Part shown: piece by piece, positions 6,432 to 11,943 of the stretch
Position numbering within the stretch: the stretch's first letter is position 1
Layout of the letters: every line of letters begins with the position of its first letter
Origin: Collinsella sp. An2
GTDB lineage: Bacteria; Actinomycetota; Coriobacteriia; Coriobacteriales; Coriobacteriaceae
NCBI RefSeq assembly: GCF_002160065.1
Contig: NZ_NFJW01000018.1
Location: forward strand, 1-36,650
Reading direction: 5' to 3'
Length of the DNA: 36,650 nucleotides
Program-made: the position numbers and the translations under genes
The notes under the pieces: model-generated
Told to the model about the DNA's origin: nothing
Database searches by the model: none
The model's input: the letters and a program-made list of their open reading frames with translations, nothing else

Positions 6432-7346
6432 ATGCGCTGCCTGATCATCCACAACCCCGCATCCGGCCCGCGATCGGACGAAATCTACACCTTCGCACAC
6501 ACGCTGGCACAAGGCGGGGACGAGATCGTGATGCGCTTTATCGGCGACGGCATGGAGCCCGAAGACGCCACGGTAGACGCCACGGACTTCGACCGCGTGG
6601 TGGTCTCGGGCGGAGACGGCACCGTATCGAGCACGCTCGATTGCCTGCGCGACTGCGGCGTGCCGACGCTCATCTTCCCCTCCGGCACGGCGAACCTGTT
6701 CTTTTCCAACATCGGCAACGCTCCCGAGGCGGCTGCGCTCGCCAAAGCGTGCCGCGAGGGCCGCACCGCTAAGGTCGATATGGGAGAGCTGTACTGGAAA
6801 GACGAGAACGGCGAGATCCGCCGCCACGGCTTTATCATCATTGCCGGATCGGGCTTCGACGCCACCATCATGCAGAAGGCCGCGCCTTCAAAAGGCGATA
6901 TCGGCGAAATCGCCTACGTGCTCTCCGCGCTCTCGACGCCCGAGCCGCAGGTGGCTCACTTCACCATCGAGCACGACGGCGTGGTGGACGAGCTCGACGG
7001 TATCTCGTGCATGGTGGCCAACACCGCGGTCATCCAAAACGACATCAATCTCTTTCCCGGCTGCCGCATGGACGACGCCCTGCTGGACATCGCCGTGGTG
7101 GAGCCGGCGCGCCTGGTCGACCTGCTGCCCACAGCCCTTGCCGGCGTCATCGATCCCGCCGGGAAGGGGCTGGGCCGCCCGAATTTCAAGATGTTCCAGG
7201 CCAGGGAAGCCAAAATCAGCTGCACGCCGTCGCTCGGCATGCAGTTTGACGGCGAGGTGATTCCCAACAACGCCGGCGTGTTTGGCGCGCGCGTGCTGCC
7301 CAAATGCCTGGATATCATCATCGACGAGTTCTCGAACCTGGCATAG
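6432..7346 (+). CDS. diacylglycerol/lipid kinase family protein (DAGK catalytic domain)
   Basis: A 304-residue soluble lipid kinase of the DagK/YegS/BmrU superfamily. The nucleotide-binding loop SGGDGT lies near residues 59-64, and FPSGTANLF replaces the commoner GTGNDFAR block. The C-terminal half contains the FDGE motif (MQFDGEVIP) that ends the beta-sandwich domain. The substrate (diacylglycerol, undecaprenol or another lipid) cannot be told from sequence. The start codon has only a weak GAAGAAG ribosome site. It is followed by about 300 bp of non-coding DNA with a degenerate tandem repeat, so it is probably monocistronic. Confidence 0.93.
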   Translation: MRCLIIHNPASGPRSDEIYTFAHTLAQGGDEIVMRFIGDGMEPEDATVDATDFDRVVVSGGDGTVSSTLDCLRDCGVPTLIFPSGTANLFFSNIGNAPEAAALAKACREGRTAKVDMGELYWKDENGEIRRHGFIIIAGSGFDATIMQKAAPSKGDIGEIAYVLSALSTPEPQVAHFTIEHDGVVDELDGISCMVANTAVIQNDINLFPGCRMDDALLDIAVVEPARLVDLLPTALAGVIDPAGKGLGRPNFKMFQAREAKISCTPSLGMQFDGEVIPNNAGVFGARVLPKCLDIIIDEFSNLA

Positions 7347-7380
7347 GGCCAAACGGCGCGGTGCCGGCAGACGGCCCGGT

Positions 7381-7503
7381 TGCCATTCGCTGCCTCGGGG
7401 CCGCCCCGCGCGCCCGGCGCCACGCACTGCCTTGGGGCTGCCCCACGCGCCCGACGCCACTCGCCGCCCAGAGGCCGCCCACACCCCCGGCGCCGTCTGC
7501 CCC
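7381..7503. repeat. degenerate 37-bp tandem repeat
   Basis: Three imperfect units at 7381-7417, 7418-7454 and 7455-7490, plus a partial fourth, follow the lipid kinase stop. Each unit begins YGCCAYKCRC and ends in a CGCGCCCGG-like block. The units are non-coding in any convincing frame and extremely GC-rich. Function unknown. Confidence 0.55.
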
Positions 7504-7563
7504 CTCAAGGTAACTCGACGCGCCCGGTCGCCGAAACATATCGGCAATCTTTTCCCTGAAGTA

Positions 7564-7591
7564 TTGCGTCGGCACTTCGCTATGCTATAGT
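7564..7591 (+). promoter_or_regulatory. predicted promoter of the attenuated ECF operon
   Basis: TTGCGT (7564-7569) and TATAGT (7586-7591) are separated by 16 bp and lie 54 bp ahead of the leader peptide start. This is the best sigma-70-like pair in the gap. Confidence 0.5.
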
Positions 7592-7645
7592 GCCCTCAAC
7601 TACTCGAACCGGCCTTACGCCATACACTCGAAAGGAGTCACCAGC

Positions 7646-7717
7646 ATGAAGAACGCACTTTGCACCGCTCGCATGAACTGGTGGTGGCGTGATGTGAATA
7701 TGGTCGGTCGACGGTGA
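7646..7717 (+). CDS. trpL: tryptophan leader peptide (attenuator)
   Basis: A 23-residue open frame starts at ATG 7646, with AAAGGAG at 7631-7637. Its middle reads MNWWWRD: three consecutive TGG codons at 7679-7687. A peptide with tandem Trp codons, followed at once by a 9-bp hairpin (7686-7694 with 7722-7730) and then an intrinsic terminator (7752-7778), is the signature of ribosome-mediated transcription attenuation that senses charged tRNA-Trp. Unlike classical cases, the downstream genes encode an ECF transporter rather than tryptophan biosynthesis. The peptide itself is expected to have no other role. Confidence 0.85.
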   Translation: MKNALCTARMNWWWRDVNMVGRR

Positions 7718-7730
7718 GATCCATCACGCC
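7686..7730 (+). promoter_or_regulatory. attenuator hairpin 1:2
   Basis: GGCGTGATG (7686-7694) is perfectly complementary to CATCACGCC (7722-7730) with a 27-nt loop. The 5' arm starts inside the third Trp codon, so a ribosome stalled there would block it. A weaker hairpin follows, GCCTATC with GACAGGC around TTTT. I could not find a strong antiterminator that also consumes an arm of the terminator. Confidence 0.65.
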
Positions 7731-7751
7731 TATCTTTTGACAGGCTGTACG

Positions 7752-7778
7752 GGCCCCCGGGAGACCGGGGGCCTTTTT
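7752..7778 (+). terminator. attenuator terminator
   Basis: A perfect 9-bp stem, GGCCCCCGG (7752-7760) and CCGGGGGCC (7765-7773), with a GAGA loop, is followed by TTTTT. It sits after the leader peptide and 131 bp before the first ECF gene, so it would stop transcription unless antitermination occurs. Confidence 0.88.
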
Positions 7779-7909
7779 GTTATCCCCTCTCTTCCGCTCT
7801 CCGCTCCGACCAGATTCGCATCACGCGCCTCCGCTCGTCGCTTCGCGGCATTCCTCCACGTCACACACTTCGTCGGTACCGCCGGCTTCCCACAGAAAGG
7901 TTGATTACC

Positions 7910-8482
7910 ATGTCCCAGCAGAACACCACCGCCCAGGCCCGCACCGTCTCCACCACCGACCGCGGCAAGCTCGACATCCGCGGCCTCGTCCTCCTTGCGA
8001 TTCTCCTTGCCGCCGGCTTTATCCTCAACTTCACGGTCGGCCGCGCCATCAGTGGCCTCACCGGCGGTGCCATCAGCCCCGAGTTCATCATCTCGGCCTT
8101 CTGCCTCACCATCTTGGCCGTGCGTCCCAACCTGGGCCAGGCGCTCATCATCGGCCTCATCTCGGCAGCGGTGATTCAAATCACCACCACCTCGCCGTTC
8201 ATCGACTTTGCGGCCGAGGGCATCGCCGCCATGGTGATGGCACTCATCGTCAAGGCCGGCATGGCCACCCCCGCCAAGAAGGTCATCCCGCTCATCGGCA
8301 CCTTCGTGACCACGGCGCTCTCCGGCATCATCTTCATGCTCATCAAGATCGCGCTCGTGGGTGGCGCCGCCCAGCTCGCCGCCGCCATGCTCCCCGTGGT
8401 CTTTGCGACGGCCGTCTTTAACGCCATCCTCTGCCAGGCGCTCTACCTGCCTATCCGCAAGGCCCTCAAGCTCGCCGACTAG
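7910..8482 (+). CDS. ECF transporter S component, predicted tryptophan-type (S1)
   Basis: A 190-residue membrane protein with about five or six hydrophobic segments, acting as the substrate-binding subunit of an energy-coupling factor importer. The first segment (GLVLLAILLAAGFILNFTVG, about residues 25-44) and the order of segments match the second S component downstream (8706-9278), so the two are paralogues. ATG 7910 is preferred because AAAGG (7896-7900) lies 9 nt upstream; an in-frame TTG at 7901 is less likely. It is the first structural gene after the Trp attenuator, so tryptophan or a tryptophan-derived compound is the predicted substrate; this rests on regulation, not on binding residues. 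Confidence 0.85.
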   Translation: MSQQNTTAQARTVSTTDRGKLDIRGLVLLAILLAAGFILNFTVGRAISGLTGGAISPEFIISAFCLTILAVRPNLGQALIIGLISAAVIQITTTSPFIDFAAEGIAAMVMALIVKAGMATPAKKVIPLIGTFVTTALSGIIFMLIKIALVGGAAQLAAAMLPVVFATAVFNAILCQALYLPIRKALKLAD

Positions 8483-8490
8483 CACGCTTT

Positions 8491-8516
8491 CCGCCGGGGT
8501 TCGCCCCGGCGGTTTT
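8491..8516 (+). terminator. intrinsic terminator between the two S-component genes
   Basis: Perfect stem CCGCCGGGG (8491-8499) and CCCCGGCGG (8504-8512) with a TTCG loop, followed by TTTT. It begins 8 bp after the S1 stop codon and would lower expression of the downstream S2-A-T genes relative to S1, unless they have their own promoter in 8517-8705. Confidence 0.85.
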
Positions 8517-8705
8517 CGTAAGGGCTGGGGCCACGCGCATCACCGCTCGCACGACTCGGAAAACGCAGCGGGAGCTATAGCCAAACACATGCGCCCGTAG
8601 CATTTATGCAGCGCGTGCACGCAGATACCGCCGACACCGTGGCCCCGCCCATCGGTAACAACAACCTACCTCACCTAACGCCCATGCCGAAGGGATTGAT
8701 ACCTC

Positions 8706-9278
8706 ATGCCGCAACCGACCGCTCAGACCACCGCCCGCACCGTTACCACCGCCGCCCACGACAACGGACTCGTGAGCCTTCCCTCCCTCGTCCTTCTAGC
8801 CGTGCTGCTTGCCGCCGGCTTCATCCTCAACCTCACCGTGGGCACCGCGCTTGCCACCACAGGCATCCGGCCGCAGTTCGTCATCGCCGCCTACGCGCTG
8901 GCCATTCTGCTCACGCGCGCCACGGTGCCGCAGGCGCTCCTCTACGGCCTCATCACCGCCGCACTCATGCAGTTCACCACCTCCATCCCCGGGCTCAACC
9001 TCCTCACCGAGCCCGTGAGCGCCGTCATCATGGCACTCCTGGCCCGTCCCAATCTGCGTGTAGGCGGTCGCAACGTCACACCGCTCGTCTCGGCTTTTGT
9101 AACCACGCTCGTCTCGGGCGGGCTCTTTGCCGCCCTGGGCAACGTGGTCACCGGTGCCGCGCCGGCGCTCTTTATTGCAAAGCTCCCCACGGTCCTGGGC
9201 ACCGCAGTGTTCTGTGCTATCGTGGTCCAGGTGCTGTATGTGCCGCTCAACCATGCGCTTAAGCGCACCCGCGGGTAA
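8706..9278 (+). CDS. ECF transporter S component, paralogue of S1 (S2)
   Basis: A 190-residue polytopic membrane protein paralogous to S1: both have a short Thr/Gln/Ala-rich N-terminus, then LVLLAVLLAAGFILNLTVG, a TTSIPGLN-like loop matching TTSPFIDF in S1, and VTPLVSAFVTTLVSG matching VIPLIGTFVTTALSG. GAAGGGA lies just upstream of the start. It precedes the dedicated ATPase and T subunit by about 100 bp, so it is the S component most directly linked to the module. It may take up the same substrate as S1 or a related one; sequence does not decide this. Confidence 0.85.
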   Translation: MPQPTAQTTARTVTTAAHDNGLVSLPSLVLLAVLLAAGFILNLTVGTALATTGIRPQFVIAAYALAILLTRATVPQALLYGLITAALMQFTTSIPGLNLLTEPVSAVIMALLARPNLRVGGRNVTPLVSAFVTTLVSGGLFAALGNVVTGAAPALFIAKLPTVLGTAVFCAIVVQVLYVPLNHALKRTRG

Positions 9279-9380
9279 CGCCGCACGACAACCACGCACG
9301 AACCGGTGCGGGCGTCTCGCTCAGCTTGGCGCCTGCACCGAATTTTGTCCCTTCATCCGTTCCACGAGACAGGCTTTTTC

Positions 9381-11204
9381 ATGCAGGACATCATCGACAT
9401 CGACCACGTATCCTTTGCATACGCCGAAGCCCCCGAGCGTTCGCTTAACGACATCACGCTCGGCATTGCCCCGGGCGAGTTCCTGGGCATCATCGGTCCC
9501 TCCGGCGCCGGCAAATCAACTCTCTGCTCGGCGCTTTCGGGCGCAATCCCCCACCACTATGCAGGGGAGTTTTTTGGCGCGGTGCGCGTAGACGGCCAGG
9601 ACACCTGCGACGTCTCGCTCACCGACATCGCGCGCACCGTGGGCAGCGTGCTTCAGGACATCGACGCGCAGATGGTGGCCTCGGTGGTAGAGGACGAGAT
9701 GCTCTTTGGCCTCGAGAACTTTGGCGTGCCGCATGACGAAATTCCCGGTCGCGTCTCGTGGGCACTCGAGACCGTGGGCATTGCCGACCTCGTCGATCGC
9801 GAGATCGCCACGCTTTCGGGCGGCCAGAAACAGAAGGTCGCCATCGCCGCCATTCTGGCCCTGCAGCCGCGCGTGCTCGTGCTCGACGAGCCCACCGCCG
9901 CGCTCGACCCTGAAAGCTCGCGCGCCGTCTTCGAGACGCTTCGTCGCATCAACCAAAGCGAGGGCATCACCGTGGTGGTCGTGGAGCAAAAGGTGGCGCT
10001 GCTCTCTGAGTACTGCGAGCGCGTAGCAGTGATGCACGAAGGACGCGTCGAGCTTGTCGGCACGCCCGCCCAGGTGTTTTCGCATACTGAGGAGCTGCGC
10101 CGGATCGGCGTCGACAGTCCGCGCACCGTGCGCGTGTCCAACAGCCTGGCCGCCGCGGGCCTGTGCCCCGCCACGCCCTGCCTCACCGTGAACGAAGCGG
10201 CAAGGCTTATCGAGGGATTGGTGACAGCACGCGGCGCCGACAGAGAGGTTTCTGAGAGCGCAGGCTCCACATCCGCGGCAACAACGCCTTCGACCGCTAG
10301 TGCTGCGTCCGCTGCCGCGGCCCCCGCAGAATCCGGTCGCTGCGCACCGGCTACCTCTCCCCGCAATGCCGCCGGTCAGGACCCCATAGTTACCTTTGAC
10401 GACGTCACTTTCAGCTATCCGGGCGGCGGCGCCTCGGTGAACAACCTCACCTTCTCGCTCTATCCCGGCGAGACACTCGCCCTCATCGGCCAGAACGGAG
10501 CCGGCAAAACCACGGCCACCAAGCTGTTGAACGGCCTGCTCAAACCATCGTCCGGTCATGTGACGGTGGCCGGGCTCGACACGCGGACCGCGCGCACCAG
10601 CCAGATCGCGCGCCATGTAGCCACGCTCTTCCAAGATCCCGACCATCAAATCTGCAAGGACACCGTACTCGACGAGATCGCCTTTGGTCTTGAGCTTGCG
10701 GGCGTCTCTCCCGCTGAAGCGCGCGGCCGCGCCCGTGTGGCCGCGGAGCGCTTCGGCCTACCCCTTGACGAGCCGCCGTTCTCGCTCTCGCGTGGACAGC
10801 GCCAGATGGTCGCCCTTGCCTCGGTCATCGTGGTCGAGCCCGAGGTCATCGTGCTTGACGAGCCTACGAGCGGCCTCGACTACCGTGAATGCATGACGGT
10901 GATGGAAACGGTCTCCCAGATGGCCCAGCAGGGCACCGCGGTGCTCATGGTCTGCCACGACATGGAGGTCGTCTCTGACTTTGCCGACCGCGCCATGGTT
11001 ATGGCAAACGGCCGCATCCAGGGCTCGGGCGCCACGCTCGACGTCTTCACCGACCCCGACCTCATGCGCGCCGCTTGCATCGCGCCGCCGCAGGTCATCG
11101 AACTCACCGAGCGCCTGGCGCGCACCGTCTCGCCTGCGCTCCACGGCGTAAGCGAGGTAGCCGATGTTGCCCGCATGGTAAAGGAGCTGGTCCAGCATGG
11201 TTAA
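9381..11204 (+). CDS. ECF transporter ATPase, fused A1-A2 subunits
   Basis: A 607-residue protein with two complete ABC ATPase domains that power the ECF importer. Domain 1 has Walker A GPSGAGKS (residues 39-46), signature LSGGQKQ (near 150) and Walker B VLVLDEPTAALDP. Domain 2 has GQNGAGKT (near 370), LSRGQRQ and VIVLDEPTSGLD. A linker of about 60 residues rich in Ala, Ser and Thr (near residues 285-335) joins them. Most ECF systems use separate EcfA and EcfA' proteins; fused forms occur in dedicated group I systems. The start is placed at MQDIIDIDHVSFAYA, where the ABC fold begins; the ribosome site (AGACAGG) is weak. Its 3' end overlaps ecfT by 8 bp. Confidence 0.93.
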   Translation: MQDIIDIDHVSFAYAEAPERSLNDITLGIAPGEFLGIIGPSGAGKSTLCSALSGAIPHHYAGEFFGAVRVDGQDTCDVSLTDIARTVGSVLQDIDAQMVASVVEDEMLFGLENFGVPHDEIPGRVSWALETVGIADLVDREIATLSGGQKQKVAIAAILALQPRVLVLDEPTAALDPESSRAVFETLRRINQSEGITVVVVEQKVALLSEYCERVAVMHEGRVELVGTPAQVFSHTEELRRIGVDSPRTVRVSNSLAAAGLCPATPCLTVNEAARLIEGLVTARGADREVSESAGSTSAATTPSTASAASAAAAPAESGRCAPATSPRNAAGQDPIVTFDDVTFSYPGGGASVNNLTFSLYPGETLALIGQNGAGKTTATKLLNGLLKPSSGHVTVAGLDTRTARTSQIARHVATLFQDPDHQICKDTVLDEIAFGLELAGVSPAEARGRARVAAERFGLPLDEPPFSLSRGQRQMVALASVIVVEPEVIVLDEPTSGLDYRECMTVMETVSQMAQQGTAVLMVCHDMEVVSDFADRAMVMANGRIQGSGATLDVFTDPDLMRAACIAPPQVIELTERLARTVSPALHGVSEVADVARMVKELVQHG

Positions 11205-11943
11205 CGTGATTGATTACATCCCCGGGCGCACGCTCCTGCACCGCCTGAACCCGGTCACCAAGCTTGCCCTTGCCGCGAGCATCATCATCGCGACGTTTCT
11301 CGCCAATACCTTTGCGCTGCTCATCGCACTCTTGGCGCTCACCTTCTGCCTGGGCATCTATGTGCACGCCGCGGGGCGCCTGGCATCGCTGCTCAAGCTC
11401 TTGGTGCCCCTGGCGATTATCATGTTCGTGTTGCAAACAGTCTTTGTACACGAGGGACCGGTGCTCTGGGGCTTTATCACCGTGGGCGGCATGACCGCAG
11501 CGGCCAAGATGGCGTTGCGCCTTTTGGGCATCGCCCTGCCGCTTGTGCTCATGCTCATGGTGACCAAAATCACCGACCTGGCCAACGCCTGCGTCGAGGT
11601 TCTGCACGTGCCGTATAAGTACGCGTTCACCTTCACCACGGCGCTTCGCTTTGTGCCCGTGTTCAGCCAGGAGATGAACGCAATCACCGAAGCGCAGACA
11701 GCGCGTGGCGTGGAATACGACACCTCGAACCCCATCAAGAAGCTGCAGCTCATGCTGCCGCTTTGCATTCCTCTGCTCATCTCCTCGGTGGGAAAGACCG
11801 ACGCGACGGCCCTTGCCGCCGAGCAGCGCGGCTTCTACCTGCGCACCCGCGCAAGCTCGTACAAGCGCTATCCGTTCCACGCCATCGACGTAGCAGCTTT
11901 CGTGCTTTGCGTGGTGCTTATCGTGGGCGGCATCTTGCTGTAA
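11197..11943 (+). CDS. ecfT: ECF transporter transmembrane subunit EcfT
   Basis: A 248-residue membrane scaffold that couples the ATPases to the S component. It begins NVIDYIPGRTLLHRLNPVTK, typical of EcfT, has hydrophobic segments through residues 25-110 and at the C-terminus, and contains the coupling motifs AQTARGVEYD and AAEQRGFYLR, the two Ala-x-Arg-Gly-like helices that contact the ATPases. It overlaps the ATPase gene by 8 bp, showing translational coupling. It is the last gene of the operon; no strong terminator follows, only the inverted array at 11983-12168. Confidence 0.93.
   Translation: MVNVIDYIPGRTLLHRLNPVTKLALAASIIIATFLANTFALLIALLALTFCLGIYVHAAGRLASLLKLLVPLAIIMFVLQTVFVHEGPVLWGFITVGGMTAAAKMALRLLGIALPLVLMLMVTKITDLANACVEVLHVPYKYAFTFTTALRFVPVFSQEMNAITEAQTARGVEYDTSNPIKKLQLMLPLCIPLLISSVGKTDATALAAEQRGFYLRTRASSYKRYPFHAIDVAAFVLCVVLIVGGILL

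Follow-up and report, generated by a model that had tools for sequence, protein, structure and literature searches.

In Escherichia coli, the trpL leader consists of a leader ORF containing Trp codons, a Shine-Dalgarno (SD) sequence, a hairpin over the Trp codons and a terminator before the first gene. The trp attenuators of Corynebacterium and Streptomyces are described as classical, carry the triple gGCC-rGCy-GGCC and precede trp operons or trpS (PMC1262725). Trp attenuators of actinobacteria are also the subject of Korolev et al. (2015), a work cited in PMC4833913. The trpB motif of Firmicutes and Fusobacteria is described as a riboswitch candidate with an antiterminator in P1 (PMC11109978). 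Bacillus subtilis TrpP is regarded as an ECF S protein, and tryptophan is listed among the ECF substrates (PMC11487621). The locus compared with these systems lies in a 36,650-nucleotide stretch of DNA from Collinsella sp. An2 (contig NZ_NFJW01000018.1, positions 1 to 36,650), referred to here as the window. Comparative analysis indicates that its leader likely works by ribosome-mediated transcription attenuation in response to charged tRNA-Trp, and that it governs a tryptophan ECF transporter by pairing an element within the leader ORF (A) with its partner in the terminator (A').

The original prediction placed three Trp codons, a 9-bp hairpin starting in the third of them and a terminator ahead of the S gene in this leader, and all three are present (Table 1). 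The terminator, with a T-run behind it, is located between the leader ORF and the first gene, and terminators were found in all WWW-leader loci that were parsed. RNA 7620-7782 folds better than its shuffled versions (z = -2.98). Rfam searches of the window at gathering and relaxed thresholds returned nothing useful, including no match to the T-box (RF00230). Upstream, degenerate GC-rich repeats occupy positions 7380-7510, downstream of a diacylglycerol-kinase-like gene (6432-7346).

Table 1. Features of the leader and operon in the window.
Feature	Position	Strand	Basis
Probable promoter (TTGCGT, 16 nt, TATAGT)	7564-7591	+	By-eye reading; weak, consensus scan without a call
SD (AAGGAG) of leader ORF	7632-7637	+	Sequence; GGAG-type SD in almost all homologous leaders
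Leader ORF MKNALCTARMNWWWRDVNMVGRR-stop	7646-7717	+	ATG 7646, UGA 7715-7717; WWW-x6-G[RQ]-x-stop spacing conserved
Regulatory codons, three consecutive UGG (Trp)	7679-7687	+	Sequence; conserved
Protector hairpin 1:2, strand 1 GGCGTGATG	7686-7694	+	9 bp; begins within third Trp codon
Protector hairpin 1:2, strand 2 CATCACGCC	7722-7730	+	Sequence; permutation and covariation tests
Putative antiterminator element A (UCGGUC), within leader ORF	7704-7709	+	42-leader alignment, partner permutation
Possible alternative hairpin 2:3 (GCCUaUC...GAcAGGC)	7728-7745	+	Fold; weak comparative support, 19/5000
Intrinsic terminator hairpin GGGCCCCCGG-GAGA-CCGGGGGCCU	7751-7774	+	10 pairs, loop GAGA; U-tract to 7778
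Element A' (GACCGG), partner of A	7763-7768	+	Terminator loop plus upper 3' arm
S component 1 (S1), TrpP-like, 190 aa	7910-8482	+	Start ATG 7910; Pfam TrpP below cut-off, fold
Possible partial terminator between S1 and S2 (hairpin followed by T-run)	8491-8512	+	Sequence
S component 2 (S2), TrpP	8706-9278	+	Pfam TrpP above cut-off; 46% identical to S1
Fused EcfA-EcfA' ATPase, two ABC domains	9306-11204	+	TIGR04520/TIGR04521
EcfT transmembrane component	11197-11943	+	Pfam CbiQ, E 1e-27

The search for Trp-rich leaders ahead of homologous S genes, suggested with the original prediction, was positive at 79 of the 80 S1 loci taken from named genomes, each with a WWW leader and a terminator, so the leader in the window is not a product of chance. 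The remaining locus is the end of a short contig that bears the label Lachnospiraceae. Counted from the first Trp codon, the stop codon is at +36 in 78 of the 80 loci. In a sample of the class, almost all of the Coriobacteriaceae and Atopobiaceae loci examined had the WWW leader. A covariance model (CM) built from 42 leaders had matches at E <= 0.01 in 130 of 298 genomes sampled from the class, the weakest of these matches being noise. The weak matches judged to be noise are G046:C7, G275:C2, G128:C1 (which overlaps a tRNA-like sequence), G203:C58, G473 and G432, together with most of the additional weak R2 matches. The model found no convincing match outside Coriobacteriia in a 198-genome sample of the phylum, and no WW leader was parsed at the full trp operons L182-L201. 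The 30 best-scoring actinobacterial trpE loci likewise lacked a WW leader within 600 nt upstream, a weak null result from a scan that required an SD and did not include the published examples by name.

The genes behind the WWW leader and terminator form an S-S-A-T operon for an ECF transporter, which agrees with the predicted placement of uptake, and not biosynthesis, under a Trp-codon attenuator. The S family had been taken as unassigned, and this part of the prediction does not hold. S2 scores 31.1 bits against Pfam TrpP (PF17099), over the cut-off of 27.2, S1 reaches 21.7 bits (E 2e-4) and stays under it, and 17 of 25 homologues match the profile at E <= 0.001. The AF2 model of S1 has a pLDDT of 85, and its best 11 Foldseek matches in the PDB are all ECF S components (probability up to 1.0, E-values > 0.001). 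By profile score and modeled fold, the S genes are thus relatives of Pfam TrpP with an S-component fold that adjoin EcfA and EcfT, and these matches together with the literature on TrpP (PMC11487621) mean that the family was already assigned. The closest named relatives of S1 are from an uncultured Coriobacteriaceae bacterium (96%) and Enorma burkinafasonensis (85%). The tandem arrangement of S genes (7910-9278) varies among relatives, several having one S gene and others two, and the hairpin between S1 and S2 may leave S2 and the ECF module less strongly expressed than S1. The 2.54-Mb host assembly lacks trpD (TIGR01245) and has no match to trpE (TIGR00564), so that Trp synthesis by the usual route is impossible; a TrpB2-type enzyme is retained. 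Judging from the missing trpD and trpE, the host cell is probably a Trp auxotroph.

The covariance model located the same architecture ahead of TrpB2 and ahead of an SNF-family transporter, the latter in a Slackia-like genus of an Eggerthellaceae-like family. The elements corresponding to A and A' in these leaders are altered on both sides, as in CGGAC/GUCCG, CGGAUUA/UAAUCCG, CGGGUCUC/GAGAUCCG, CCGGGUCA/UGACCCGG and UUCUGGGUCU/AGAUCCAGGG. In four of the six SNF leaders (L102-L106, L059) the stop codon is 18 nt further upstream, at +18, and CGGUC is kept outside the ORF. The host genome has a second WWW attenuator outside the window (G000:C5:33345-33456), with a leader ending in AAAWWWNNGMRPLSD, that precedes TrpB2 and carries the CGGAC/GUCCG pair. 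Another family (f4; L108, L381) has one WWW attenuator followed in the same orientation by TrpB2 and then by a TrpP S gene, and in L108 the S domain is apparently fused to the ATPase. Three loci in genomes of the Eggerthellaceae-like family (L369, L372, L373) have leaders ending in GAWWWNK(K/R)H with terminators that look degenerate; an ABC ATPase gene starts 53 nt past the match in L373, and L372 likewise has ATPase ORFs of this kind further downstream.

The original prediction stated that the antiterminator was not obvious and that the switching mechanism might differ from the E. coli scheme. The first statement is superseded by a pairing with comparative support, and the second is supported by the position of that pairing on the 3' side of the terminator. 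Alignment of the 42 leaders revealed two conserved segments that complement each other, CGGUC within the leader ORF and GACCG across the terminator loop and 3' arm, and A:A' is paired in 98.4% of cells in the ECF leaders. The loop ends in a conserved GA that is unexplained by the terminator stem and is explained by pairing with the leader. The number of loop nucleotides paired in A:A' was 2.76 with a leader's own partner and 1.43 with permuted partners (0/20000, all leaders); the same test gave 0/20000 for the TrpB2 leaders alone and a marginal 629/20000 for the ECF leaders alone. In duplex energy, too, A:A' with a leader's own partner beat permuted partners (0/5000 overall, 1/5000 within ECF leaders). 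The covariation score was 0.360 compared to 0.172 for shuffled alignments (0/500), and it exceeded that of every slid version. This covariation stems mainly from the TrpB2 and SNF leaders. There is none within the ECF leaders alone, where the pair is conserved and hardly variable and testing is therefore low in power. For hairpin 1:2, own partners beat permuted ones (0/5000), and shuffles reached its covariation in 9/500, with the slid versions again scoring lower. The leader, the terminator, hairpin 1:2 and A:A' are thus supported by comparison.

A classical antiterminator of the E. coli type would pair the stop-codon region (B) with the base of the terminator 5' arm (B') and leave A:A' a secondary role. 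GAGUC is complementary to GGCUC of the 5' arm in many ECF leaders, folded antiterminators often nest the B:B' helix inside A:A', and a classical scheme, built on a conserved triple of complementary segments, is what has been described for the known trp attenuators of actinobacteria (PMC1262725). The window has no clear GAGUC/GGCUC pairing, and permuted partners equaled the B:B' pairing in a marginal 236/5000 cases overall and in 3101/5000 within the ECF leaders, against 0/5000 and 1/5000 for A:A'. B:B' is therefore unsupported as the main antiterminator within the ECF leaders, and the classical arrangement is considered unlikely. A pairing of the SD with the terminator (GGAG with CUCC) fits relatives and not the window, and was dropped by inspection.

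The conserved distance from the Trp codons to the G[RQ]x-stop end of a short Trp-containing leader could also point to a nascent-chain sensor of free tryptophan, resembling TnaC, that stalls when Trp is abundant. The residues outside WWW vary in these leaders and the nucleotides are kept. The leader Gly codon is GGT in 55/55 unique leaders compared to about 7% of Gly codons in S genes, and the codon before it encodes V, I, A, L, N, P or F with a third base that is always C or T. Counted from the first Trp codon, element A is found at roughly +19 to +37. The stop is not fixed and ranges between +36 and +18, and in the four SNF leaders the conserved CGGUC falls outside the ORF. Variable residues with fixed nucleotides, together with CGGUC outside the ORF, indicate a constraint on the nucleotide sequence and not on the peptide. 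A stall induced by Trp would moreover switch uptake on when Trp is plentiful, and a sensor of this type is highly improbable.

The footprint of a ribosome extends about 18 nt to the 5' side of its A-site codon and about 12 nt to the 3' side. Given this standard footprint and the positions of A in those leaders whose A:A' helix could be parsed, a ribosome that has reached the stop codon would overlap A, sometimes only in part, and a ribosome on WWW would leave A free. With a stalled ribosome and A' just emerged, the median A:A' probability is 0.99 in the ECF leaders; in the nascent RNA of the window it is 0.91 with the stalled ribosome versus 0.0001 without it. For many relatives A:A' is predicted with no ribosome present as well (median 0.85), and a default-off state is therefore not shared by all leaders. 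Once complete, the terminator exceeds the antiterminator in stability by a median of 5.8 kcal/mol, and by about 13 kcal/mol in the window, which means that antitermination must be kinetic. A:A' and the terminator share the 3' arm and are mutually exclusive there; the lower stem could coexist with A:A' as a pseudoknot. A:A' might accordingly be a loop pseudoknot over an intact lower stem that tunes termination and is not an antiterminator, a reading consistent with A' spanning only the loop and the upper 3' arm and not directly covering the basal stem beside the U-tract. The position of A, which would be masked at plentiful Trp and free at scarce Trp, argues against it, as does the predicted folding at the moment A' has just emerged, when the antiterminator equals or approaches the minimum-energy structure (median gap 0.0 kcal/mol). 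The pseudoknot reading is judged quite unlikely.

The preferred reading, with A:A' as the antiterminator, predicts the following sequence of events. When Trp is sufficient, the ribosome would reach the UGA and cover A, the terminator would form and transcription would stop. When Trp is short, the ribosome would stall on the three UGG codons and cover strand 1 of hairpin 1:2, leaving A exposed to pair with A' once it is transcribed. This pairing would prevent the terminator stem from nucleating and allow RNA polymerase to continue into the S-S-A-T genes. With no ribosome on the window leader, hairpin 1:2 would hold A in its loop and termination would be the default, a behavior absent from the models of many relatives. 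From sequence comparison and predicted folding, we infer the ribosome occupancy, the direction of regulation and the kinetic blocking step.

The orthologous ECF-TrpP operon of Eggerthellaceae has a different leader. Ten loci of the Eggerthellaceae-like family lack WWW, and nine of these have GTATCTGGACCG and AAGGTGGCACCGCAG upstream. Rfam T-box (RF00230) matches with E-values of 8e-11 to 2e-13 were found before the S gene in the six loci scanned (L053, L054, L057, L058, L060, L061), and reading of the sequences by eye placed UGG at the specifier position. Because these matches score under the gathering cut-off, they would go unnoticed in standard annotation. The string PSIWTVSLR upstream of Eggerthellaceae S genes, considered as a second leader peptide, is the T-box specifier region. 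An azaaromatic riboswitch aptamer (RF01764, 61.9 bits) lies near another ECF-TrpP locus (L062:8152-8252). Homologous operons with a terminator and no Trp-rich leader had been named at the outset as evidence that would count against tryptophan; Eggerthellaceae have such operons, but the UGG T-box in them favors Trp and is an independent sign of a Trp signal. By comparison, then, one transporter appears to be controlled by two unrelated RNA devices, both pointing to Trp. Membership in the TrpP family, the TrpB2 and SNF leaders, the UGG T-box and the missing trpD and trpE uphold the proposal that tryptophan is the likely substrate of the ECF transporter.

The overall assessment is that the window holds what appears to be a real Trp attenuator, representing ribosome-mediated attenuation in a new form whose function is deduced from sequence; open-licence literature was searched, and an earlier description may exist. 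With somewhat less assurance than the attenuator itself, the Trp regulon of Coriobacteriales (ECF-TrpP, SNF transporter and TrpB2) is proposed to use a separate class of amino-acid attenuator, in which an antiterminator directed at the terminator loop and 3' arm blocks nucleation and a ribosome at the stop codon masks the leader element. The analysis supports tryptophan as the substrate of an ECF transporter that is widespread in gut Coriobacteriia without trpD, and suggests that uptake, use of indole by TrpB2 and the SNF transporter are joined in a single regulon for Trp starvation. Should the 3'-side antiterminator prove real, competition for the terminator 5' arm, the rule given in textbooks, would not be universal, and tools that seek only 5'-arm competitors would miss such switches.

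Each of the known systems shares part of this arrangement. B. subtilis TrpP has the family (PF17099) and the S-component fold in common with the S proteins of the window, whose operon differs in having a dedicated ECF module (fused A-A' and T) and two S genes. The T-box is found at the orthologous operon in Eggerthellaceae and answers to the same presumed signal, but it reads the tRNA directly and has no leader peptide. The trpB motif is also a cis element with a terminator that is tied to trpB and amino-acid transporters, but it is reported from other phyla and is not described as a WWW leader, the two being set apart by description and not by sequence (PMC11109978). The Corynebacterium and Streptomyces attenuators resemble the window in being actinobacterial leaders with a double or triple UGG and a GC-rich terminator (PMC1262725). 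E. coli trpL shares the leader ORF, SD, protector hairpin and intrinsic terminator with the window leader, which differs in that its predicted antiterminator takes the terminator loop and 3' arm in place of the 5' arm and in that the attenuator would govern uptake and not biosynthesis.
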